64,000 bases of DNA from Fidelibacterota bacterium. GTDB taxonomy: Bacteria > Fidelibacterota > Marinisomatia > Marinisomatales > UBA1611. The notes beneath the pieces are model-generated. The model did not search any database and had not been told where the DNA came from. It saw only the letters and a list, made by a program, of their open reading frames with translations. Positions 21,932 to 41,439 of this stretch are shown here, one piece after another (within the stretch, counting starts at the first letter, position 1; each line of letters opens with the position of its first letter). The stretch covers positions 1 to 64,000 of the forward strand of contig JABHUQ010000084.1 of the NCBI GenBank assembly GCA_018658715.1, in the 5' to 3' direction. The translations under genes and the position numbers were made by a program.

Positions 21932-23647
21932 CTATGATGATATGGGTTCGGATTGAGAAATCCAGTCACGATCTTTGACTTTTGGGTTACTATATTCGTG
22001 TGGCCCATTATAAATAGTTGGAACTGTTTCAAAATTACCATGAGGTATGGGTGCTTCTAATGTCCATTCTAATGTTGCAGCACCCCAAGGATTTGCTTCA
22101 GCCTTTTCACCTTTGAGCATAGAGTGAATAAAGTTATACACAAAGATAAGTTGAGCCAAACCAAGAGCAATAGCGAACCATGTAATATATTCATTCAACC
22201 ACATCATGGGTTTTAAGAAATCATAATTACTTGGATCATAAATCCGTCTGTGGTGCCCACCATATCCCAAAACCATCATATTAAAAAACACATAGTTTAA
22301 TGGAATAAAGGATACCCAAAAATGGAGTTTTCCAAGGAATGGATTCATTTTCCGGTCAAACATTTTTGGGAACCAAAAGTAAATTGCCGCAAAACTACCA
22401 AAAAGAACAGATGCTGCCATTGTGTAATGGAAATGGCCCACAACAAACATAGTATCATGCAAATAAATATCTGCTGTAATGGTTGCATTATAGAGACCTG
22501 TTAATCCCCCAATTCCAAATACCCACATCACAGACATAGCAAATAACATTGGTGGATCAAATTTGATAGATCCTTTCCATAATGTTCCTAGCCAATTGAA
22601 GAAAAACATAGCGGATGGGATACTAATGAGTAATGTTAAAAACATAAAAGATTTTCCTAAGAGCGGACTCATACCTGTCGTATACATATGGTGTCCCCAA
22701 ACAAGCATACTTAAAGAAGCGACGGTGGTCATTGCTATGGCTGTTACTTTATAACCAAAAGCAGGTTTCCGGGAAAATACAGATAATAAATCTGAAACAA
22801 TTCCCCAAGCAGGAAGAATTAAGATATATACTTCAGGATGGCCGAAAATCCAAAAGACATGTTGATAAAGAAGTGGATCACCGCCATCAACAGTTGCCAG
22901 GCCGCCAGAAATGAAAAATTGTGTTCCAATGGTTCTGTCCATGAGAAGTAAGATTAATCCAGCTGCAATAACAGGAACAAAAATTGCGTTTAAAATGGAT
23001 GTAAGCCAAAGGCCCCAGACAGTTAGTGGCATTTTAAAATATGTCATTCCTGGCGCACGTAACCGAACAACGGTAATAATATAATTAATGGCGCCCATCA
23101 TGGACGAGGTTCCTGCCAATGTGAGTGCTAATGTCCATAAAGTTTGACCTTCTCCTGCAATACCGCCCACAGGTGAGCTCAATGGAGGATAAGACGTCCA
23201 GCCACCTGCTGCAGTTCCTTCAGGTAAAAAGTACGATCCCAGTAAAACAATTGATGCTAGAACCATTGTCCAAAAAGAAATCATATTTAATTTTGGGAAA
23301 GCCATATCAGGAGCACCAATTTGTAATGGGATTACAAAATTACCAAATGCACCAATGAGGAGGGGTGTAATCGCCCAAAAGATCATAATGGTGCCATGCA
23401 TTGTAAAGAGCGCATTATACTTGTCTGGGTCAATGATTCCACCGGTATCGGAGAATAGTATATCTCCAAGTAGCCACCAAGGTACAGGTTGTTCAGGATA
23501 TGCTAATTGCCAACGAATAAGTAATGCTTGGAATCCTCCGAATAATACAAAAAAGAGACCCAACCATAGAAATTGCTTCCCGATAACTTTATGGTCTAAT
23601 GAAAAAATATATTTAGACCAAAAAGATTGTTCGTGATGTTCTGACAT
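21932..23647 (-). CDS. coxA: Cytochrome c oxidase subunit I (A-type heme-copper oxidase), operon 1
   Basis: 571 residues from ATG 23645-23647, with AAGGAGATAAAATA ahead of it; the ATG overlaps the coxB TAA. Twelve TM helices. Heme a ligand in MHGTIMIFW, D-channel IGAPDMAFPKLN, CuB ligands in GHPEVYILILP (with the A1-type Glu and the cross-linked Tyr) and GHHMYTTGM, heme a3/a ligands in GHFHYTM. The helix VIII site that normally reads PTGIKxFxW is PSAMFFFNW, so the K-channel lysine is Phe. The enzyme reduces O2 to water and pumps protons at the inner membrane. Ends with an EWTLEAPIPHGNFE tail shared by the family. Confidence 0.96.
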   Translation of the reverse strand: MSEHHEQSFWSKYIFSLDHKVIGKQFLWLGLFFVLFGGFQALLIRWQLAYPEQPVPWWLLGDILFSDTGGIIDPDKYNALFTMHGTIMIFWAITPLLIGAFGNFVIPLQIGAPDMAFPKLNMISFWTMVLASIVLLGSYFLPEGTAAGGWTSYPPLSSPVGGIAGEGQTLWTLALTLAGTSSMMGAINYIITVVRLRAPGMTYFKMPLTVWGLWLTSILNAIFVPVIAAGLILLLMDRTIGTQFFISGGLATVDGGDPLLYQHVFWIFGHPEVYILILPAWGIVSDLLSVFSRKPAFGYKVTAIAMTTVASLSMLVWGHHMYTTGMSPLLGKSFMFLTLLISIPSAMFFFNWLGTLWKGSIKFDPPMLFAMSVMWVFGIGGLTGLYNATITADIYLHDTMFVVGHFHYTMAASVLFGSFAAIYFWFPKMFDRKMNPFLGKLHFWVSFIPLNYVFFNMMVLGYGGHHRRIYDPSNYDFLKPMMWLNEYITWFAIALGLAQLIFVYNFIHSMLKGEKAEANPWGAATLEWTLEAPIPHGNFETVPTIYNGPHEYSNPKVKDRDWISQSEPISS

Positions 23648-28050: not shown

Positions 28051-29772
28051 TTACGCTTCTGATTGTGGGATAAAACCTTTGTCGGATCCTGGAACGCTAT
28101 ATTCATAAGGGCCACGATGAACTTCAGGTATAATTTCAAAATTTCGGTGAGGTAATGGCGGGGAAGGAGCATCTGTCCATTCTAATGTTGTGGCCTCCCA
28201 GTGATTATCATTTGCCTTTTCACCAGATTTAAGACTCATAATTAAATTAATAATGAATGGTATTTGTGCTAACCCAAGTAACCAAGCAGATGTTGACATC
28301 ATTTCATTAAGGTAAAAAGTATCTGTGGCGTGAGCATAGGATATTCCGCCATCCCATAATCGTCTAGAAACTCCAGCAAGTCCTTGAATAAACATGGGCA
28401 TAAAAATGCCATTAATAAATATCATGGATGTCCAAAAGTGAATTTTCCCTAATCGCTCATTTAACACTTTGCCTGTCATTTTTGGAAACCAATAATAAAT
28501 ACCTGCAAATAAAGCAAAAATAGTTCCTGGAGCAACCACATAGTGGAAGTGACCAATAACATAATAAGTATCATGAAGATGAATATCAGATGCAGCTATA
28601 CCTAAAGGTAAACCTGTTAATCCTCCTATGCCAAACATGGGAAGGAAACCTAGTGCAAATAGCATGGCTGTATTATACCGAATGGATCCACCCCAAAGAG
28701 AAATAAACATAGCAGTTAATATCACCACGGATGGAATAGAAATGATCATGGTTGTTGTTTGAAAAAAGGCACTAATGGTTGAGCCCATTCCTGTCATAAA
28801 CATATGGTGAGCCCAAACAACAAAGGACATAAAACCTAAGAAGGAAGATGCATATACAATTGATTTGTATCCCCATAGTGGTTTTCGAGTATTGTTAGCA
28901 AGAATTTCTCCCACAATTCCCATAGCGGGAAGAATCAGAACATACACTTCAGGATGTGCTAAGAACCAAAAAAGATGTTGCCATAATAGCGGGCTCCCGC
29001 CACCACTTACATCTAATAGTTCTCCAGATACAACTAACCCTGATGGTAGAAAAAAACTTGTTCCAGCTAAACGATCCATTAATTGAAGGACACCAGCCGC
29101 TTCTAAAGGGGGAAAAGCTAATAGAAGTAAAAATCCTGTTATAAACTGTGTCCAAACAAAGAAGGGGAGTCTCATCCATGTAAGACCTTTTGCCCTGAGT
29201 TGAACAATGGTTGTAATGGTATTTACTGACCCAAGTAAAGATGATGTAATCAGTAATACCATTCCGAAAAGCCAAACAGTTTGACCTGTAGTGGCAATGT
29301 CAGATAAAGGAGGATAAGACGTCCAACCAGAGTTAGCAGCACCACCTGGCACGAAAAAACCAACCATCATCACGATTCCACCTGCTAAATAACACCAATA
29401 ACTAGACATATTTAATTTTGGAAATGCCATATCAGGTGCACCAATTTGCAGAGGTACAAAATAATTACCAAAAGCACCTACCGCTAGGGGAACCACACCT
29501 AAGAAAATCATAATAGTTCCATGCATGGCACCTAATGAATTATAAACCTCAGGTAACATAACACCTTCTTCACCAAATAACCACCCAAACCAAGGCATCG
29601 GTTGTTCTGGATAAGCTAATTGCCATCTCATTAACATCATAAGGGTAAAGCCAAATAGTAGGAATACCAATGCTGTTATTCCGTATTGTATACCAATGAC
29701 CTTATGATCAATTGAGAAAATATATTTTCTCCAAAATGGTTCTTCGTGATAAGTATCAGTATGTCCGCTCAT
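28051..29772 (-). CDS. coxA: Cytochrome c oxidase subunit I (A-type heme-copper oxidase), operon 2
   Basis: 573 residues from ATG 29770-29772 (AAGGACA about 6 bases upstream; the longer frame to 29850 is non-conserved). Heme and CuB ligands are complete: MHGTIMIF, AHPEVYVLILP, AHHMFMTGM, GHFHYVVAPG. D-channel IGAPDMAFPKLN is intact. Helix VIII reads SIPSVVILTAMFISLW where canonical A-type enzymes have PTGIKxFxW, so the K-channel lysine is Ile here. It is more hydrophobic in this helix than the operon 1 paralogue. It catalyses O2 reduction with electrons from CuA. First gene of an operon followed by subunits III, IV, two small proteins and II. Confidence 0.96.
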   Translation of the reverse strand: MSGHTDTYHEEPFWRKYIFSIDHKVIGIQYGITALVFLLFGFTLMMLMRWQLAYPEQPMPWFGWLFGEEGVMLPEVYNSLGAMHGTIMIFLGVVPLAVGAFGNYFVPLQIGAPDMAFPKLNMSSYWCYLAGGIVMMVGFFVPGGAANSGWTSYPPLSDIATTGQTVWLFGMVLLITSSLLGSVNTITTIVQLRAKGLTWMRLPFFVWTQFITGFLLLLAFPPLEAAGVLQLMDRLAGTSFFLPSGLVVSGELLDVSGGGSPLLWQHLFWFLAHPEVYVLILPAMGIVGEILANNTRKPLWGYKSIVYASSFLGFMSFVVWAHHMFMTGMGSTISAFFQTTTMIISIPSVVILTAMFISLWGGSIRYNTAMLFALGFLPMFGIGGLTGLPLGIAASDIHLHDTYYVIGHFHYVVAPGTIFALFAGIYYWFPKMTGKVLNERLGKIHFWTSMIFINGIFMPMFIQGLAGVSRRLWDGGISYAHATDTFYLNEMMSTSAWLLGLAQIPFIINLIMSLKSGEKANDNHWEATTLEWTDAPSPPLPHRNFEIIPEVHRGPYEYSVPGSDKGFIPQSEA

Positions 29773-33342: not shown

Positions 33343-36333
33343 TTACCATTCATCATCATCCCATTCATCCTCCTCATCACTTTCTTCTTCGCCAAAATTA
33401 TATCCATTTTCGTCGAAATATTGTTTCACAATATTAGATATATCTTTTTGACCTTTCATAGCCCAAATAAAATCACGTATACCTTCTAACATGGCAGTTG
33501 TATCCCCATCCAAGGCTATCAAATGTTCTCCATAAATATTGGAAGCATCATCATCCTCAAATAAATCAGTTGTAGGTAGGAAGGGAGCTGGCATTTTTGT
33601 TCCAGGCATAATAACCATCGGATCTTTTAACCAGTCTACAATCCAATCAGCACGAAGGCGATCTTTTGCCATGGCTAAATTCGGCGCCCAAGCTTGAGCA
33701 CCTTGAATTGGGAATGTTGAACCATAGAAATGGCAATTGTCACATGCACCGAAATCTGTACTTGCTAACTTTTCACCGGCTTTTATTTTCCTTCCCCAAG
33801 AAATGGAATGATCTGTTTCATAAGCTAATAACTGATCATCGGCGAATTGGAATGAACGTATGATAGAATTCCATTGATCATCTGTCATATTAAAAGAAGG
33901 CATCCTTACTTGTAAATTCGGTCTAATGGTTGTTGGACCATTAAAGAATTTGAATAACCAATCAGGTTGTGTTTTACGTCCTTGGGTGTTCAAGCTAGGT
34001 GGAGAAAATTCTGCAGAACCTATTACATCAACAATTTGACCACCAAAATTGTCAATAATATGGCATCCTTGACAATTAAACTCTTTAATAAGCTTACGAC
34101 CTTCATACACTAGTTCATCGCTGACATATTGGTCAGCGTGCATTTTTAGACTGACTTCATCTTCCGAAAGACTTAATATTGCTGTAACCAGTGCTTCAAT
34201 TTCTAAATCACTAAATCCGAAATTGGGCATTCGCAATTTATCTTCAGCAGGAGATTCTTTCCCATGGTCAAAGATTCGAGGGTTTTCCAGTTTACGTCTA
34301 AACCAAGCATGATTCACGTGTTCTATATCATGGATATAGCCAAAATCAAGTTTATCAACTGGTTTGGAACCTTCAAATGTTAATTCTGTTCCAATGGGTT
34401 TTGCATCTTCATACCCTGGAATATTGTGACAACCAAAGCAACCATAATACCTGAAACTTTTATCAGCGACAAAATCCATTTTTTCATCATGAGACATATT
34501 TGCTAAAGTAGATTTTGCGAATGCTTCTGTATTCATTTTAGATAGCCAACCAAAAGCAATATTTTCTAATTGTTTTTTATCCAATTCAATATCATCCATT
34601 GCTTCAAAATCAGGGTTTGTGAAGGATCTTAAGTAGGCAGTGATATCCTTAGCTTCTTGGTCAGATAATCTCAAATCAGGCATGCGGGTTTCGGGCCAAT
34701 ATTCACTCGGATTTTTAATCCAATTATACACCCATTTAGCAGATCCTTTTGATCCAAGTCCAATCAAATTTGGTCCATGGTCCTTAAGGATGGATTCAAT
34801 TGAAATACCATCTGACATATTTGCTTCATCCGGTTCGACAATATGGCAACCACGACAACCTACAGCATTAAAAAGTTCTTCCCCTTTAACCGCATCACCC
34901 ATAAATCTATGATCGTTTTCAGTTGATACTTCTTTCCCATTTGGGAATAAATAATTAACCATAGTCATAATTTCAGTATCATTACGTTTTATCATATCTG
35001 GGCTAGAATTATTGTCCTGCCCAAAGAAGTGTGGCATCCGAGTATTATGTCTGAATTCTTTTGGAGATTTTATCCACTTTGCTGTCCAGCTTTTATTTAA
35101 TTTTTCAGAAACTTTTGCTAAATCTGGTCCTGCTTTCCGTCGCTCTTGATATCGTTGAATTAAGTGACATCCATTACATCCACTTTTTTCGATTAGAGAA
35201 AGGCCAAGTGTGAGTTGGTCTGCATCATTTATATAAGCTTCTTTTTGATGACATTTAAAACAGCTAGCTTCTGTATAATTAGATGGAAGCATTGGTTGCA
35301 ACCAATGATGCATTTGTTCCCAATCATACTCTTCTTCCCACCGTGCTTTTTCCTCATCCGAATCGGGCATATGGACTGCCGAGACAAACGATGTTCCGCG
35401 TGCTCTCCCAGAGTGACATCCTGTACAACCAAATTCCGTCATTGGATGTGGAGATGCTGAACTTAAGTATGTTTCCAAATTAGGATGAGATCTAAAAGGT
35501 TGTTCTGCTTCAGCAAAATCTGGATTTGTAATGCCTAAATGACAACTGGTGCATCTATCCACCGATGGAACTTGTGTGAAATTCACATTATACTTAATGT
35601 CTGGTACAACAATTTGTTTAACCTTGTAATATGGATTCATAAAATCAAGAATAGGCAAATCACGAACTAAATCACCTACTTTATTCATGAATGACATATG
35701 CTTTCTATCGATTTTCTCTAACTTATTTTGAACAAGTTGTACATCAGCCAAAATACGATTTAATTCTTCTGTAGAAGCTTTAACATCACGATTCATTTCT
35801 TTTATAAAAAGTTCAGTATTAGCAATGTCCGTTTCAGTTGCTTCTTTTTTTAATTTGTAATTATGAAGTAAAACATTTGCATCATCAAACGTTTGTCTAT
35901 TTTCAGCAGAATGATCTTCGCCATGATCTAATCCATGTGTATTATCTTTTTCCACCAAATATTTTAAAGCATCAATTTCTGATTTTTGACCTTGGTAATT
36001 CATATTATGTCTATAGAAAATACCTTTTAAAGTCACTAATCGAAACTCTAGAGAATCTGCCAAACTTTTTTTAGAGTTTAAAATATTTTGTGCTTCTTGA
36101 GCCTTTTCTTCATAAGAGACACGTTCATTTTTTACCGTTTCAAGCTCTTCGGCTAATTCAACTTCTGCCATTTGAATTTCAAGTTGTCTGAAATTGCGTT
36201 GATAAACTTTGTATTCGTCGTCATTATCATCGATAAACATCCAAACAAATGAAATCATAAATAGAATGCTTGAAATGGCGAACCATTTATTAAGTTGATG
36301 AATATTCCAATATCTTTCGTCGTTTTTAAACAT
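33343..36333 (-). CDS. Membrane-anchored octaheme cytochrome c with coiled-coil stem
   Basis: 996 residues. N-terminal TM helix at about 16-33, a long helical coiled-coil stem (about 38-210), then eight CxxCH heme sites beginning at Cys261, 303, 358, 386, 493, 632, 754 and 864. Several Met-Pro ligands follow (TRMPHFF, TRMPDLR, RMPNFGF, VRMPSFN, GTKMPAPF), as in repeated cytochrome c domains. The C-terminus is acidic with Trp (EEDEWDDDEW). It is the last gene of the bc operon, where cytochrome c1 or f would be, so it probably accepts electrons from the Rieske protein on the periplasmic side and hands them to the oxidases. Confidence 0.92.
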   Translation of the reverse strand: MFKNDERYWNIHQLNKWFAISSILFMISFVWMFIDDNDDEYKVYQRNFRQLEIQMAEVELAEELETVKNERVSYEEKAQEAQNILNSKKSLADSLEFRLVTLKGIFYRHNMNYQGQKSEIDALKYLVEKDNTHGLDHGEDHSAENRQTFDDANVLLHNYKLKKEATETDIANTELFIKEMNRDVKASTEELNRILADVQLVQNKLEKIDRKHMSFMNKVGDLVRDLPILDFMNPYYKVKQIVVPDIKYNVNFTQVPSVDRCTSCHLGITNPDFAEAEQPFRSHPNLETYLSSASPHPMTEFGCTGCHSGRARGTSFVSAVHMPDSDEEKARWEEEYDWEQMHHWLQPMLPSNYTEASCFKCHQKEAYINDADQLTLGLSLIEKSGCNGCHLIQRYQERRKAGPDLAKVSEKLNKSWTAKWIKSPKEFRHNTRMPHFFGQDNNSSPDMIKRNDTEIMTMVNYLFPNGKEVSTENDHRFMGDAVKGEELFNAVGCRGCHIVEPDEANMSDGISIESILKDHGPNLIGLGSKGSAKWVYNWIKNPSEYWPETRMPDLRLSDQEAKDITAYLRSFTNPDFEAMDDIELDKKQLENIAFGWLSKMNTEAFAKSTLANMSHDEKMDFVADKSFRYYGCFGCHNIPGYEDAKPIGTELTFEGSKPVDKLDFGYIHDIEHVNHAWFRRKLENPRIFDHGKESPAEDKLRMPNFGFSDLEIEALVTAILSLSEDEVSLKMHADQYVSDELVYEGRKLIKEFNCQGCHIIDNFGGQIVDVIGSAEFSPPSLNTQGRKTQPDWLFKFFNGPTTIRPNLQVRMPSFNMTDDQWNSIIRSFQFADDQLLAYETDHSISWGRKIKAGEKLASTDFGACDNCHFYGSTFPIQGAQAWAPNLAMAKDRLRADWIVDWLKDPMVIMPGTKMPAPFLPTTDLFEDDDASNIYGEHLIALDGDTTAMLEGIRDFIWAMKGQKDISNIVKQYFDENGYNFGEEESDEEDEWDDDEW

Positions 36334-36341
36334 ATGTCACT

Positions 36342-37466
36342 CTAAATGTTGAAGAACCATTCGGGAATGGCTATGATGTATTTAAGATTAAATAACCAAC
36401 GCATATACATTTTGATTGGCAAAGATAACATGGATAAACCAAACAACATTAAAAACGTATATCGCACTGGACCGATTTCCTGAAAATAATTTTTTAGCCA
36501 TGATTTGGCTAATATAATAGGGAGAATTCCCATATATCCAATTAAGACGATGAAACCAATAATTTCTCGAAGAAGAATATTTGTGGGCATTCCTGTACCT
36601 AACATTTTTACCCAAATATATTCGGATAAATTCACATTGTTCAATGGAACAACTTTATGAGCATCCCAATATTCGAATGGACCAAAGAAATTCCAGTTAG
36701 GCCCACGGAAAAAAGTACCAATTACAATCAAAAACAACCACAATACTACCCATCCATACATAAAAATAAACATTCCAATACGACGTTCTTTGAAAGAATA
36801 GTAGCCATCACCTTTTTTGTTAATATCCATATAAGGGATTGCCATCATTCCAATAATGATAAATATGGGGAAAATGATACCAGCAATCCATGGATCGAAA
36901 TACACAAGCATTTCTTGTAAGCCTAAGAAATACCATGGCGCTTTCGATGGATTTGGTGTTGCTGCAGGGTTAGCAGGTTCTTCTAATGGAGCAGCCACTA
37001 AAATGGACCAAACAATCAGAAAAACCATAAATAAAATGAGAGCAATAAATTCAATGTATACCAAATCAGGCCAAACCAATACTTTATCATCTGGATCATT
37101 GTATTCCATTGGTTTAAGGCCATTTTCTAATCGATCATCATTTTGATATGCTTGGTACATACTCCACCAAATAGCGATAAACATAGAATATATCATTAAA
37201 ATAATTGGAAAATTATCTGCTTTGGTAAGGGTAATATTGAAATTAGGATCAAAATACCCGACGACAAAAAAGAATGTAATGGCAATCATTCCACCATAAA
37301 ATCCAGGTTTAGTCCACAGACGACAAATTCCAAATTTTCGATGTATTTTTTCAAACCAATCTGTGGGTGGAAATACAAATGGAAAGGCAATAGTCAACAA
37401 TGTAAAGCTAACCGTTGGCGCTGAAAGAATATCAATTATATCTTTAAATGTTTGAAGCACAAGCAA
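36342..37466 (-). CDS. Cytochrome b C-terminal subunit of a bc-type complex (subunit IV-like)
   Basis: 374 residues with about eight to nine TM helices. The quinol-oxidation-site region reads NPSKAPWYFLGLQEMLVYFDPWIAG, so the usual PEWY motif is APWY, a variant common in bacterial bc complexes of this split type. It is much longer than plant subunit IV (about 160), with extra helices at both ends. It is translated 15 bases after the b6-like subunit and 8 bases before the octaheme cytochrome. Together with the b6-like gene it makes up the quinol:cytochrome c reductase membrane core. Confidence 0.9.
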   Translation of the reverse strand: MLVLQTFKDIIDILSAPTVSFTLLTIAFPFVFPPTDWFEKIHRKFGICRLWTKPGFYGGMIAITFFFVVGYFDPNFNITLTKADNFPIILMIYSMFIAIWWSMYQAYQNDDRLENGLKPMEYNDPDDKVLVWPDLVYIEFIALILFMVFLIVWSILVAAPLEEPANPAATPNPSKAPWYFLGLQEMLVYFDPWIAGIIFPIFIIIGMMAIPYMDINKKGDGYYSFKERRIGMFIFMYGWVVLWLFLIVIGTFFRGPNWNFFGPFEYWDAHKVVPLNNVNLSEYIWVKMLGTGMPTNILLREIIGFIVLIGYMGILPIILAKSWLKNYFQEIGPVRYTFLMLFGLSMLSLPIKMYMRWLFNLKYIIAIPEWFFNI

Positions 37467-37481
37467 CCTCGTAATTTGAGT

Positions 37482-38273
37482 TTAGAGTGGACCTGAAATG
37501 CCGCCATCTTTCCGGATTCTCCAGAAGTGAACAGCCATCAAAATCATCACAATGAATGGAACACCAATACAGTGTAATACATAGAAGCGTAATAAAGATG
37601 CTTCCCCAACAAATCGTCCACCTAATAAGGCAAAACGAACATCCGAACCTGCATGGACTAAATTAATATCTCCAATCGCTAATAAAGATGCACCTGGTCC
37701 TTCATGCCCAATAAATGGATGAGCACGTGCCATATTTGTTCCAACTGTAATGGCCCAAATAGCTAATTGATCCCAAGGAAGTAAATATCCAGTAAAGGAT
37801 AAAAACAAGGTTAAAGTCATGAGTAATACACCCACTCCCCAATTGAATTCTCGTGGTGGCTTATAGGATCCAGTCATGAATACACGGAGCATATGCAACC
37901 AAACCGTTAGAACCATTGCATGGGCACCCCAACGATGTAATTCACGCATAATACCAAGTGGGACCTGTTCTGTCATATCGATTATATCAGTATATGCATA
38001 TTCGACTGTTGGCCTATAATAAAACATGAGAAGAATTCCTGTTATGGTGAGAACGATGAATAGGAAGAAGGATAATCCACCCATACACCATGTATACCCA
38101 ATTTTAACCGCATGTTTTGGTATGCGAGCAGGATGAAGGTGGAGGAAGACACTCCCCAAAATCGCTTGCATGCGTTGACGTCTTGAACGAGGGACACCAG
38201 ATCGAATAATTGATTTCCAAACCTGAGATTCTCCCATTCTTTCTAAGAATGATTTTTTATTTTTATTTTCCAT
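37482..38273 (-). CDS. Cytochrome b6-like subunit of a bc-type complex
   Basis: 263 residues with four core TM helices. Heme b ligands: His113 (ELHRWGAH) and His127 (WLHMLRVF), 14 apart, and His234 (YVLHCIG) and His249 (MAVHFWRI), 15 apart, the spacing of cytochrome b6. Cys63 in YTWCMGGLSFF aligns without gaps to Cys35 of b6 (YCLGG, 22 residues before YYRPTV), the covalent heme c(i) site. The N-terminal 50 residues are basic and cytoplasmic. It oxidises or reduces quinone with the C-terminal subunit and Rieske. Gene order: HEAT, Rieske, this, C-terminal subunit, octaheme cytochrome. Confidence 0.94.
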   Translation of the reverse strand: MENKNKKSFLERMGESQVWKSIIRSGVPRSRRQRMQAILGSVFLHLHPARIPKHAVKIGYTWCMGGLSFFLFIVLTITGILLMFYYRPTVEYAYTDIIDMTEQVPLGIMRELHRWGAHAMVLTVWLHMLRVFMTGSYKPPREFNWGVGVLLMTLTLFLSFTGYLLPWDQLAIWAITVGTNMARAHPFIGHEGPGASLLAIGDINLVHAGSDVRFALLGGRFVGEASLLRFYVLHCIGVPFIVMILMAVHFWRIRKDGGISGPL

Positions 38274-38291
38274 ATTAGTTTAGAATTCCTA

Positions 38292-38840
38292 TTATACTTT
38301 TAAGAAGGATTCGGCATTTTCCCATTCGCCTTTTTCCCATTTGAAACTTTTTGTTTTATCTACAAGAATTTGTCCATCTGTTGCAACAGAAATTTTATAT
38401 CGTTCCAAGGGCCGAGGGGCAGGCCCCTCAAAGTTGATACCAGTCATACGAAATCCACTACCATGGCATGGACATTTAAATTTATTTTCAGTCCCAAGCC
38501 AATTAGGTGTGCACCCTAAGTGTGTACAAACGGTTGAAAGGGCAAAAATAGATTCTTCATCTCTTACCATCCATACATTAAATTTCTTTTTGTATCGAGT
38601 ATCCACAAAATTAGATGCATAATCATTTGGAAATCCTGCTTTGAATGTTTGAGGTGGTTCGAATAATACGTTTGGAAATAGAAATCGAACAATTACGGTA
38701 AAAAATCCACCAGTCGCAACAGAAAATGCAATCCAACCCACTGTCATCCATCGGAAAAAACCGCGGCGCCCAAGCGCATTATCATCTTTTTCTGCTGGAG
38801 ATACAGAAGCAGGCGGTGTTGTTTTTATGTCTTCAGTCAT
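38292..38840 (-). CDS. Rieske 2Fe-2S protein of the bc-type complex
   Basis: 182 residues. A Tat-like twin-arginine segment (GRRGFFRWM) precedes a single TM anchor (about 33-55). The cluster box CTHLGCTPNW and CPCHGSGF supplies the two Cys and two His ligands plus the disulfide pair. It carries electrons from quinol at the Qo site to the cytochrome c partner on the periplasmic side. It lies 3 bases downstream of the HEAT gene and 18 bases before the b6-like gene. Confidence 0.95.
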   Translation of the reverse strand: MTEDIKTTPPASVSPAEKDDNALGRRGFFRWMTVGWIAFSVATGGFFTVIVRFLFPNVLFEPPQTFKAGFPNDYASNFVDTRYKKKFNVWMVRDEESIFALSTVCTHLGCTPNWLGTENKFKCPCHGSGFRMTGINFEGPAPRPLERYKISVATDGQILVDKTKSFKWEKGEWENAESFLKV

Positions 38841-38843
38841 AAT

Positions 38844-39719
38844 TTAAATAACCCTATTGTATGCTGATTTTAATGATTTTATTGCTGCATCACGAATTGT
38901 CAAATTAGGCTCGGATGTAGCAACTATTGCTAATTGATCTTCAAATTGGTTGTCGGGGTATTGTGCTGCAATATGAATAGCCACAAGCATAGCTTGGTTT
39001 TTTTCACTTTCATCAACTTCAGGAAAAGATTCAAAGTAGGATCTATTCATTAAATTGGTAATAATGTGATTCCCAGAATGGTCACCCATTTTTGCTAGGG
39101 CTATTGCAGAATCCCAACGAATATTTGGTTCTTCATCTTCTAATAATATTTTTAATGTAGGAATAGATTCTAAATGTCCAATTTTACCTAATGCAATTGT
39201 GGCAGCTAAACGTTCTTCCACAATTTTAGAATTCAGAGATAATTGATTTAATGATTGTGCTGCATCATGATATTGAATCATTCCAATGGCTTGAATAGCC
39301 GCCAACCGAGAAAATCGATCTTCATCAGATAGCCCACTTAATAATGTTGGACCAAAAACATTTCTTCCTGTTTGCCCCATTGCTAATGCTAAATATGTTC
39401 GAACTTTGGCATTGTCATGAATCGATTTATTATAAGCGGATATCATTTGATTATTGAAATCCATCTCTTCAGGAATTAAATCTGGTTGTGATAAAATTTT
39501 AGATAATTCATAAGCAGATTGCCACCGTTTAGATGCAGACCCTGCTCGGACATCATTTAAATAGTCATAAGCATTGTTGGATTCAAATGTAATAAATTTG
39601 AATAGAAGAAAAAATACAGCACCAAATATCGCAATCATAAAAGGAACTAGGAAAAAGGAATAAAACAGGACATATACCCGGCTATTTTCTTTTGCGTTTA
39701 ATTTATCTTTTAGGCTCAT
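38844..39719 (-). CDS. Membrane-anchored HEAT-repeat protein in the bc operon
   Basis: 291 residues. An N-terminal TM (about 17-40) is followed by about five HEAT/armadillo-type helical pairs: DEDRFSRLAAIQAIGMIQYHD, SKIVEERLAATIALGKIGH, EEPNIRWDSAIALAKMGDH and EPNLTIRDAAIKSLKSAY. HEAT scaffolds bind other proteins. Its place directly before Rieske, with adjoining start and stop codons on both sides, suggests a periplasmic scaffold that is a subunit or assembly factor of the bc complex or holds it to the oxidases. That role is inference. Confidence 0.85.
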   Translation of the reverse strand: MSLKDKLNAKENSRVYVLFYSFFLVPFMIAIFGAVFFLLFKFITFESNNAYDYLNDVRAGSASKRWQSAYELSKILSQPDLIPEEMDFNNQMISAYNKSIHDNAKVRTYLALAMGQTGRNVFGPTLLSGLSDEDRFSRLAAIQAIGMIQYHDAAQSLNQLSLNSKIVEERLAATIALGKIGHLESIPTLKILLEDEEPNIRWDSAIALAKMGDHSGNHIITNLMNRSYFESFPEVDESEKNQAMLVAIHIAAQYPDNQFEDQLAIVATSEPNLTIRDAAIKSLKSAYNRVI

Positions 39720-39872
39720 TTAATTATTTTTTGATTTTAGTTCAACTTTGTTCCATATAATATTAACACGTTTTTCCAATTTTCTGACTTTTCGTTTCAT
39801 AGAAAAAATCTCACTAACTAAAAGTAAAGCAAAAATAAATGTTAATACTGTAATTAAGGGAAAAATATTCAT
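39720..39872 (-). CDS. Small single-TM protein with basic amphipathic tail (50 residues)
   Basis: ATG 39870-39872 overlaps the stop of the upstream small gene (TAATG), and its TAA (39720-39722) abuts the HEAT ATG at 39719. One TM (LITVLTFIFALLLVSEIF) is followed by a Lys/Arg-rich helix (MKRKVRKLEKRV) that would lie in the cytoplasm. It is below common length cutoffs, but the gap-free fit between neighbours makes it a real gene. It is probably a minor subunit of the bc complex. Confidence 0.75.
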   Translation of the reverse strand: MNIFPLITVLTFIFALLLVSEIFSMKRKVRKLEKRVNIIWNKVELKSKNN

Positions 39873-40024
39873 TATTCGCCTGTAACTTGATTTGAGTCAT
39901 TTTTTAATTGTAATCCGAGTAATATTGGGAAAAAGAATAATATAACCAAGCCTACAACAAGGATACCAACTGCCCAATGCAAGTGATTCATTAACCATGA
40001 GAGTGTTAACCATTCAAAATTCAT
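39872..40024 (-). CDS. Small single-TM protein (50 residues) in the bc operon
   Basis: ATG 40022-40024 starts 1 base beyond the preceding small gene's stop; the frame is open to 40081 but that part is the coding region of the other small gene in another frame. Sequence features: MNFEWLTLSWLMNHLHWAVG, one TM helix (VGILVVGLVILFFFPILLGL), and a polar tail. The aromatic/His N-terminus would lie in the periplasm. The TAA overlaps the next ATG by one base. No known family. Confidence 0.72.
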   Translation of the reverse strand: MNFEWLTLSWLMNHLHWAVGILVVGLVILFFFPILLGLQLKNDSNQVTGE

Positions 40025-40025
40025 T

Positions 40026-40136
40026 TTACAAAATCCAATATACCATTGTGATATAAATAAGAAGTAATAGAGTTGTAACAACCATAGATATCCATTGCGA
40101 TCGACTTATTTTAGGTGTTGAACTACTGGGTGTCAT
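40026..40136 (-). CDS. Small single-TM protein (36 residues) in the bc operon
   Basis: ATG 40134-40136 begins 1 base after the stop of the SRPBCC-repeat gene; TAA at 40026-40028 is 1 base before the next ATG. The N-terminus is polar (MTPSSSTPKISRSQW) and then one TM helix runs to the end (VVTTLLLLIYITMVYWIL). Size and design resemble the tiny single-helix subunits (PetL, PetM or PetN type) of cytochrome b6f, though no sequence relation can be claimed. Confidence 0.65.
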   Translation of the reverse strand: MTPSSSTPKISRSQWISMVVTTLLLLIYITMVYWIL

Positions 40137-40137
40137 A

Positions 40138-41439
40138 TTATGATTTTGCTCTTTTGGCTTTTACAACAGCTGATTTAATTTTGCCACGAAGAACTTTATT
40201 CTCAAGCGCATTAATTTCATCCATATTTCCCGCAACACCATCCCCAATTAATCGATTTATTAATTTTTCTTCTGTTTCTTGGGGAACAGCATCCGTAATT
40301 GGTTGAGCTTTTTGTATTTCAGGCATGGGAGGCCTTTCTGATTTCCCTCGATTAATTTTCACAACCAATGCTTTTGCCTTACCGCGTGTTGCCTTGTTCT
40401 CAATACCATTAATGTATTCTTTATCCCCATCTAATGCTTTATTAACAGCGATGGCAATCAAATCGTCAGAACTTAATTCAACAGGTGAATCAAATAATTG
40501 CGTGGCGCCACCTTCCGGTTTTTTCGGTTTTGGAGGAGTCACACCTGTTCTTTTAGCTTTTACAACTCCAGCTTTTGCCATGCCACGAATAGGTTTTTCA
40601 AGAATATTATTGATAAAATCCATATTCCCTTCCATACCCATATTGATGGCGTATGCAATATAATCTTCACGAGATTCGAAGCCATCAAATTGAGATGCAG
40701 CAGATTGTCCGCTTTCATCTCCTTCATCAGACTGATTATAATCAACTTTGGGCACAATAGACTCTAAAGTTGTAAGTGTGTGTGCCTCTCTGTTATAAAA
40801 TCTGAAAAGTGATAGAAACGAAAAGAACCCTTTACTCTGTTTCTTGTAATTAACTAAAACACCATTGTCATGAGAATCTAGTGAAATAGTCATTTGTTCT
40901 GTGTATAATGGGCTAAACCGCATTTCTAGAACTAATTCTTTTTCTTTTTCAATGGAAACAATTTTACAATTGAAATAATGTGATAAAGAAAAGGGTCTGA
41001 TTTTAAAAAGTGTTCCTGCATTTAATTCAATACGATCAAATGAATATTGAGTTACATAACGATCTGTTTCAACAACGGGTAATGCGCGTTGGACTCTTGG
41101 CATCCATACATTCAGTAATTCAAAAGATGTGATTGTTCTCCACAGAATATTTGGTGTCGTTGAGAAAAATCGTTGTATATGACATTCTGCTATAAAAGGA
41201 GTATAGGACGCATTGGCAAAATAGGTTTCAGGAGTTGGGAATTCTGGAGATTGATAATTAGGAGATCTTCGAGTCACACCAGATAATTTAATTTCATGTG
41301 ATGTATAATGATTCACTCGCCCATCAGCAGTTTCAACTTCATACCGCGTTGGATAGTAAAATATTTTTTTTAATGTCCCGTCTTCCCCTGTTGAAAGAAC
41401 TTTACAGGTTGTCCCTAAATCGACCTGATGTAAACTCAT
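40138..41439 (-). CDS. SRPBCC (START-like) protein with three C-terminal RGKxKAxVVK repeats
   Basis: 433 residues, cytoplasmic. Residues about 75-235 look like a SRPBCC/polyketide-cyclase ligand-binding fold (AECHIQRFFSTTPNILWRTI, ELLNVWMPRVQRALPV, LVLEMRFSPLYTEQMTISLD). The C-terminal half has three related units of about 38 residues: YAINMGMEGNMDFINNILEK-PIRGMAKAGVVKAKR; IAVNKALDGDKEYINGIENK-ATRGKAKALVVKINR; LIGDGVAGNMDEINALENK-VLRGKIKSAVVKAKR. Linkers are Pro/Lys-rich. Unknown role. As first gene of the bc operon it may bind quinone, heme or lipid, or guide assembly. No homologous family is known to me. Confidence 0.75.
   Translation of the reverse strand: MSLHQVDLGTTCKVLSTGEDGTLKKIFYYPTRYEVETADGRVNHYTSHEIKLSGVTRRSPNYQSPEFPTPETYFANASYTPFIAECHIQRFFSTTPNILWRTITSFELLNVWMPRVQRALPVVETDRYVTQYSFDRIELNAGTLFKIRPFSLSHYFNCKIVSIEKEKELVLEMRFSPLYTEQMTISLDSHDNGVLVNYKKQSKGFFSFLSLFRFYNREAHTLTTLESIVPKVDYNQSDEGDESGQSAASQFDGFESREDYIAYAINMGMEGNMDFINNILEKPIRGMAKAGVVKAKRTGVTPPKPKKPEGGATQLFDSPVELSSDDLIAIAVNKALDGDKEYINGIENKATRGKAKALVVKINRGKSERPPMPEIQKAQPITDAVPQETEEKLINRLIGDGVAGNMDEINALENKVLRGKIKSAVVKAKRAKS

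Follow-up and report, generated by a model that had tools for sequence, protein, structure and literature searches.

What are three tiny membrane proteins doing at the head of an operon for a bacterial bc complex? The question is raised by the window, a stretch of 64,000 nucleotides of contig JABHUQ010000084.1 from a Fidelibacterota bacterium. In a preliminary description of this DNA, three consecutive minus-strand frames, here called sA, sB and sC, were placed between a SRPBCC-repeat gene and the genes for HEAT, Rieske and cytochrome b proteins, and this location agrees with the window. Re-reading reproduced the frames, coordinates and strand exactly, and a single hydrophobic stretch, corresponding to the one transmembrane (TM) helix claimed for each frame, was found in all three. 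The genes are the following.

40138 to 41439, minus strand: SRPBCC-repeat gene, upstream of sA
40136 to 40026 (40026..40136), minus strand: sA, ATG start, single-TM protein of 36 aa, MTPSSSTPKISRSQWISMVVTTLLLLIYITMVYWIL
40024 to 39872 (39872..40024), minus strand: sB, ATG start, single-TM protein of 50 aa, MNFEWLTLSWLMNHLHWAVGILVVGLVILFFFPILLGLQLKNDSNQVTGE
39872 to 39720 (39720..39872), minus strand: sC, ATG start, single-TM protein of 50 aa, MNIFPLITVLTFIFALLLVSEIFSMKRKVRKLEKRVNIIWNKVELKSKNN
38844 to 39719, minus strand: HEAT-repeat protein of 291 aa with a TM helix at its N-terminus (Pfam HEAT_2, 5.6e-18); the conserved bc core starts with this gene
38292 to 38840, minus strand: Rieske [2Fe-2S] protein (Pfam Rieske, 2.1e-10; NCBIfam b6f PetC-like, 3.8e-21)
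37482 to 38273, minus strand: N-terminal half of cytochrome b, b6-like, 263 aa (Pfam Cytochrome_B, 1.7e-39; NCBIfam cytochrome b6, 1.8e-53; ExtP, 7.4e-80, below its cut-off)
36342 to 37466, minus strand: C-terminal half of cytochrome b, subunit-IV/PetD-like, 374 aa (Pfam Cytochrom_B_C, 2.5e-05; NCBIfam b6f subunit IV, 2.6e-06)
33343 to 36333, minus strand: membrane-anchored multihaem cytochrome c, 996 aa, 8 CxxCH (Pfam cytochrome c domains; CxxCH motif count)

The tight junctions described earlier are also present. One base (+1) follows the stop codon of the SRPBCC gene before sA and one base (+1) follows the stop of sA before sB, sB and sC overlap by one base (-1, TAATG), and the stop of sC abuts the HEAT ATG at 39719 with 0 bases between them. 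The three genes are closely spaced as if translationally coupled. In a promoter and terminator scan of the region, the minus strand had nothing resembling a terminator from 36.6 to 41.8 kb, and promoter-like sites occurred at shuffle level.

The enzyme of the operon is predicted to be a b6-type split-cytochrome b/Rieske/octahaem cytochrome c quinol reductase. Its cytochrome b halves score with the ExtP/ExtQ-type split b cytochromes of the selenite/tellurite operon (ExtP 7e-80, ExtQ 5e-18) and also as b6 and subunit IV (PetB/PetD). However, the ExtP and ExtQ scores are below the curated equivalog cut-offs, and this operon additionally encodes a Rieske protein, a HEAT protein and three microproteins. 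The HEAT gene was found in every examined bc locus with enough upstream sequence, with or without sA, sB and sC. The SRPBCC gene is present in the window's family and absent from the operons of the other order described below, therefore it is not part of the conserved unit. The SRPBCC-like protein has C-terminal repeats of the form GNMDEINALENKxLRGKIKSAVVKAKRAK and evolves quickly, with 63% identity within a genus compared with 98% for cytochrome b.

Whether the three frames are genes at all was decided by comparing the bc locus of 38 relatives, together with a second family from a different order (f16, loci L104-L121) that was located with the sB profile. The genomes compared are draft MAGs or single-cell assemblies in which an absence can reflect an assembly gap; the absences relied upon here come from several genomes each and from operons that were read through. 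A conserved position ahead of HEAT and Rieske and a Ka/Ks below 1 had been proposed as checks on the frames, and both were found. In one bc lineage sA and sB lie upstream of HEAT-Rieske-cytochrome b in 42 of 42 operons and sC in 41 of 42; these operons come from about 24 species of the window's family (f1) and its neighbour (f14) and from 18 species of the other order. Values of dN/dS are 0.07 for sA, 0.09 for sB and 0.11 for sC (nine close species pairs for sA and sB, eight for sC), with synonymous sites near saturation in some of the pairs. Pooled pN/pS is 0.150 for sA (95% bootstrap 0.112-0.193), 0.163 for sB (0.126-0.209) and 0.233 for sC (0.186-0.284), and differences at codon positions 1/2/3 number 52/15/132, 76/21/153 and 94/33/181, respectively. 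The idea that the three frames are spurious, or are decaying within an intergenic spacer, has their short length in its favor and nothing else; it is refuted by the strong purifying selection and the conservation across two orders, and virtually no weight is left to it. sA, sB and sC are genuine coding genes under purifying selection.

Within the window's family, all members with a contig that extends sufficiently far show the order SRPBCC-sA-sB-sC-HEAT. Among 18 loci of this family the spacing between the frames is about -8 to +11 bases, and sC is separated from HEAT by 0-77 bases. The upstream neighbors vary, being the SRPBCC gene in the window's family and ctaB-ctaA, a gene of about 130 aa or MORN-like lipoprotein genes in f16, while the block sA-sB-sC-HEAT-Rieske-cytochrome b is kept. 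In part of f16, in many loci (L104-L110), a gene of about 117-133 aa (...HPRLYL...) lies between sA and sB. In the f16 loci with this insert gene of about 130 aa, the Rieske protein is also extended at its N-terminus by about 45 residues (MxLTxEEKxxLIxAKxES...).

Three new protein families are represented by sA, sB and sC. Their kind, one-helix subunits of bc complexes, is already known, and the bc variant is an unusual one. They have been seen so far only in the phylum Marinimicrobia (Neomarinimicrobiota), and no paper describing them was found in the literature on Marinimicrobia, which was covered in part. Lengths of 36-50 aa exceed the minimum of some gene callers, so some of the three may already be annotated as hypothetical proteins. 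A search of phage DNA gave no match. One contig filed as Alphaproteobacteria (L144, JAAXKA010000121.1) carries SRPBCC-sA-sB-sC-HEAT-Rieske of the Marinimicrobial type and is probably misbinned.

The three families differ in sequence and share a simple plan. One hydrophobic helix is kept as a rule across the relatives, the best 19-residue Kyte-Doolittle mean having a median of 2.4-2.9 and a minimum that is never below 1.9; the exception is some sA proteins with a second hydrophobic stretch. Most sA relatives have 26-37 aa and a few have 54 aa with two hydrophobic stretches, the second stretch being present in genus g47. The length ranges are 43-64 aa for sB and 45-57 aa for sC. The family core of sA is (I/A)SMxxCTxLLxxYxxLVxWVL (alignment of 32 species), that of sB is WLTxxWLMxNLxW...ILFFFPxLLGxxLK (36 species), and sC has a basic cytoplasmic helix, KLKKEVRKLxK (34 loci). 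sA mostly terminates directly behind its helix, with LVxWVL-stop in the window's family. AlphaFold2 models sB as one long helix (pLDDT 86) and sC as one continuous helix over residues 4-49 (pLDDT 95).

The distribution of charge suggests that the three proteins do not all face the same way. The mean number of Lys and Arg residues among the relatives is 2.1 on the N-side of the sA helix and 0.03 on the C-side, 0.28 and 3.6 for sB, and 0.06 and 9.8 for sC. By the positive-inside rule sA is predicted to be N-in with its C-terminus at the periplasmic face of the membrane, sB is predicted to be N-out/C-in, and sC is predicted to be N-out/C-in with its basic tail in the cytoplasm. One genome encodes a 128-aa protein that has the sA helix as its C-terminal anchor (L112:4475-4861, on the minus strand in the oriented coordinates of the locus), a fusion that suggests a cytoplasmic partner domain for sA.

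Do the microproteins belong to a family that is already known? Profile searches of Pfam, NCBIfam and PDB gave no match for sA and sB, and for sC they gave only generic TM and coiled-coil noise (LapA_dom, DivIC, FtsL) below the curated cut-offs. The preliminary description compared the frames with PetG, PetL, PetM and PetN of cytochrome b6f. All three have the single TM helix of the small b6f subunits, and sA alone falls within their length of about 29-40 aa. The Pfam families PetG, PetL, PetM and PetN had no match at E <= 1 for sA, sB or sC of the window, are absent from the family lists of 36 sB and 32 sA relatives, and are not among the 25 best-hit families for 34 sC relatives. Positive controls were recognized by their own Pfam families (PetG at 1.6e-20, PetN at 2.8e-16). 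With no profile match although the controls were recognized, homology to PetG, PetL, PetM and PetN was rejected.

A second known family that was considered is CcmD of the cytochrome c maturation system, which would make sC a CcmD protein misplaced in the bc operon. sC has the same plan as CcmD and CcmD_alt, with a short N-terminus, a TM helix and a basic cytoplasmic tail, and there are faint matches of the window's sC to Pfam CcmD (E 0.19) and of 2 of 34 relatives to NCBIfam CcmD_alt (E 0.0026). However, all scores are under the curated cut-offs (12.3 bits for PF04995, where 25.6 are required), and the ccmA-ccmB-ccmC cluster on contig 18 has its own 43-aa single-TM frame behind ccmC, a candidate ccmD. 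Since sC is encoded away from ccmABC and a separate candidate ccmD exists in the genome, this identity was rejected; it is largely refuted and scarcely credible.

The history of the operon is the main evidence for what the triplet belongs to. In a tree of Rieske, cytochrome b and subunit IV all 42 operons with the microproteins (f1, f14 and f16) fall in one clade with an SH-aLRT of 100, and the presence of sA, sB and sC is one change of state on this tree. The bc operons of f3, f5, f7, f8, f9, f17, f18, f20 and f25 are without all three; no small frames were found hidden inside the bc operons of the triplet-lacking families, and no copies of sA or sB were found elsewhere in their genomes. Profile searches detected sA and sB nowhere beyond these bc operons. 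The four f16 genomes without a bc operon (G163, G169, G170 and G171) are also without sA, sB and sC (4 of 4). Taxonomy places f1 and f14 in one order with f3-f9, whereas their bc genes cluster with those of f16, f17, f18 and f20, and constraining that order as monophyletic costs the bc tree 143 log-likelihood units (AU p = 1e-50). Both a SecA tree and the position of the main f1 COX1 agree with taxonomy. It follows that the bc operon and the microproteins moved as a unit and the terminal oxidase did not, and, because the older bc operons of the phylum are without all three, that the triplet was added once to an existing enzyme. The simplest history would be one gain of the triplet on an older bc operon in the neighborhood of f16, f17 and f18, followed by entry of the whole unit into the ancestor of the window's family, which would have kept its own oxidase. 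In f14 (G045) COX1 clusters with that of f18, and more than the bc unit may have been transferred there. The whole HEAT-Rieske-cytochrome b-subunit IV operon of the window's family (33343-39719; L031-L066, L104-L121, L192-L199) appears to have been acquired horizontally from relatives in another order.

The same trees bear on a role in the aa3-type oxidase or in the delivery of haem a or copper. ctaA, a SCO-like gene and ctaB are close to the triplet in the window and two cox clusters with one COX1 each lie farther downstream on the same contig, and in part of f16 ctaB-ctaA is upstream, so an oxidase role has its neighborhood to recommend it. However, the window has ctaA and ctaB on the other strand, some families have both bc and cox genes but no triplet, and in the window's family the main COX1 clusters with its own order, bc and the triplet with the other one. 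Co-inheritance with COX1, as would be expected of oxidase-associated small proteins, was not found in the COX1 tree, and this assignment was rejected as highly improbable. Genomes with and without the triplet could not be told apart by the presence of COX1 alone. G163 and G170, which are without the triplet, have oxidases, that of G163 being very divergent, so their missing triplet counts only mildly against an oxidase role. The window itself has two different COX1 genes (22184-23584 and 28309-29697), and the second type (22184) lies on a separate branch common to a few f7 and f16 genomes.

The comparison of genomes gives strong support to a link of the triplet with the bc complex and not with the oxidase or haem genes in the vicinity, because the triplet moved together with the bc operon and neither COX1 nor SecA went along. 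Linkage to and co-inheritance with the bc genes, as expected of supernumerary bc subunits, are found for sA, sB and sC. Of the earlier proposal, minor subunits or assembly factors of a bc reductase, the link to the bc complex has gained in strength by co-inheritance, and the comparison with PetG, PetL, PetM and PetN stands as an analogy without a relationship in sequence. Co-transfer would also be expected of mere neighbors, but the long retention and strict order make that less likely. We favor the reading that sA, sB and sC are supernumerary single-helix subunits of the bc complex, some of them perhaps associated transiently, and put its probability at roughly two in three, membership of the complex being deduced from genomics.

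How might such subunits work? The triplet would be co-translated with the Rieske/split-cytochrome b/octahaem cytochrome c quinol reductase and inserted into the membrane with the C-terminus of sA at the periplasmic face and those of sB and sC in the cytoplasm. As peripheral helices they may pack on the cytochrome b/subunit IV core at the membrane rim of the dimer, or on the anchors of the Rieske protein and cytochrome c. Packing of this kind could stabilize the dimer or a cofactor-loaded assembly state, much as PetG, PetL, PetM and PetN do in b6f or P6, P8 and P12 in Corynebacterium, and the basic cytoplasmic helix of sC may serve as a docking surface. In b6f, several single-helix proteins of about 29-38 aa are attached to a complex of split cytochrome b (b6 plus subunit IV) and Rieske protein, as is putatively the case for the triplet. 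Differences from the Pet proteins are the clustering of the triplet genes within the bc operon, the greater length of sB and sC, and an octahaem cytochrome c as partner in place of cytochrome f. PetG and PetN have been reported to be essential and PetL not to be, in a study cited by PMC5126843. In the bcc-aa3 supercomplex of Corynebacterium (C. glutamicum), P12, P8 and P6 are small lineage-specific extra subunits that were overlooked until cryo-EM (PMC8795186). These are likewise small lineage-specific proteins with a bacterial bc complex, but they belong to a different phylum, searches of PDB detected no homology, and the triplet genes track bc and not the oxidase phylogenetically.

An alternative is that the three proteins are dedicated assembly, maturation or stability factors, for example for the cytochrome b halves, the Rieske protein or the octahaem cytochrome, that leave the finished bc enzyme. 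The evidence from the operon and from co-transfer applies equally to such factors, the triplet precedes the structural genes, the SRPBCC and HEAT proteins, likewise no redox carriers, share the operon, and in the model the basic cytoplasmic helix of sC would be free. Similarity to any known assembly factor was not found in Pfam and NCBIfam profile searches, however, and in sA and sB the membrane-facing and aromatic residues are equally strongly conserved, which suggests stable packing. We regard a purely assisting role as unlikely, and prefer that of stable subunits.

A narrower proposal for sB is that it arose from the membrane anchor of the Rieske protein by duplication and reduction, and that it sits in the membrane the other way round and occupies or mimics the site of the Rieske helix. 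The sB profile aligned with the Rieske TM segment (WLTxxW...FxFPxxL; 38660-38770) with an hhalign score of 26.5, which no other of about 90 windows across the TM segments of six proteins reached; the next best, unrelated, was 22.3 and the maximum of 200 column shuffles was 22.0. However, the probability of the alignment is just 74-77%, the match is short and hydrophobic and requires a 3-residue gap, and the predicted topologies are opposite, Rieske being N-in (RR/RK motif) and sB C-in. Convergence is the more likely cause of the similarity, and an origin of sB from the Rieske anchor is improbable.

The subunit reading has a counterpoint in the triplet-free bc operons of at least eight other families, which mean that sA, sB and sC are not needed by the core enzyme. 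The case of sC is also less strict than that of sA and sB. Two other families (f9 and f14) have solitary sC-like proteins encoded at a distance from bc genes, and the bc operon of G045 (f14) has no sC in place while a solitary sC-like protein is found in f14. These two observations mean that the role of sC may be looser or wider than the bc complex alone. The solitary proteins (TM helix plus SEIFKLKKEVRKL) are at L122:554-703, L123:1417-1569 and L124:6989-7147, and the solitary gene of f9 adjoins an isochorismatase-like gene.

The purpose of the tiny one-helix subunits of bc complexes is an open question that has usually been studied in organisms in which no member lacks them. Here a single phylum contains closely related operons that carry the triplet and others that do not, the gain is placed on a tree, and the unit has changed lineage without the oxidase, so the question can be tested by expression of matched operons. 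It is possible, at a little under even odds, that a non-photosynthetic bacterial quinol reductase independently gained three one-helix subunits in the structural role of PetG, PetL, PetM and PetN, which were added in one step to an older and simpler enzyme before the operon as a whole spread horizontally. If so, the operons would amount to a natural before-and-after experiment on the accumulation of tiny supernumerary subunits by bc complexes. Three undescribed protein families would also join the respiratory chain of an ocean phylum that is abundant and largely uncultured.
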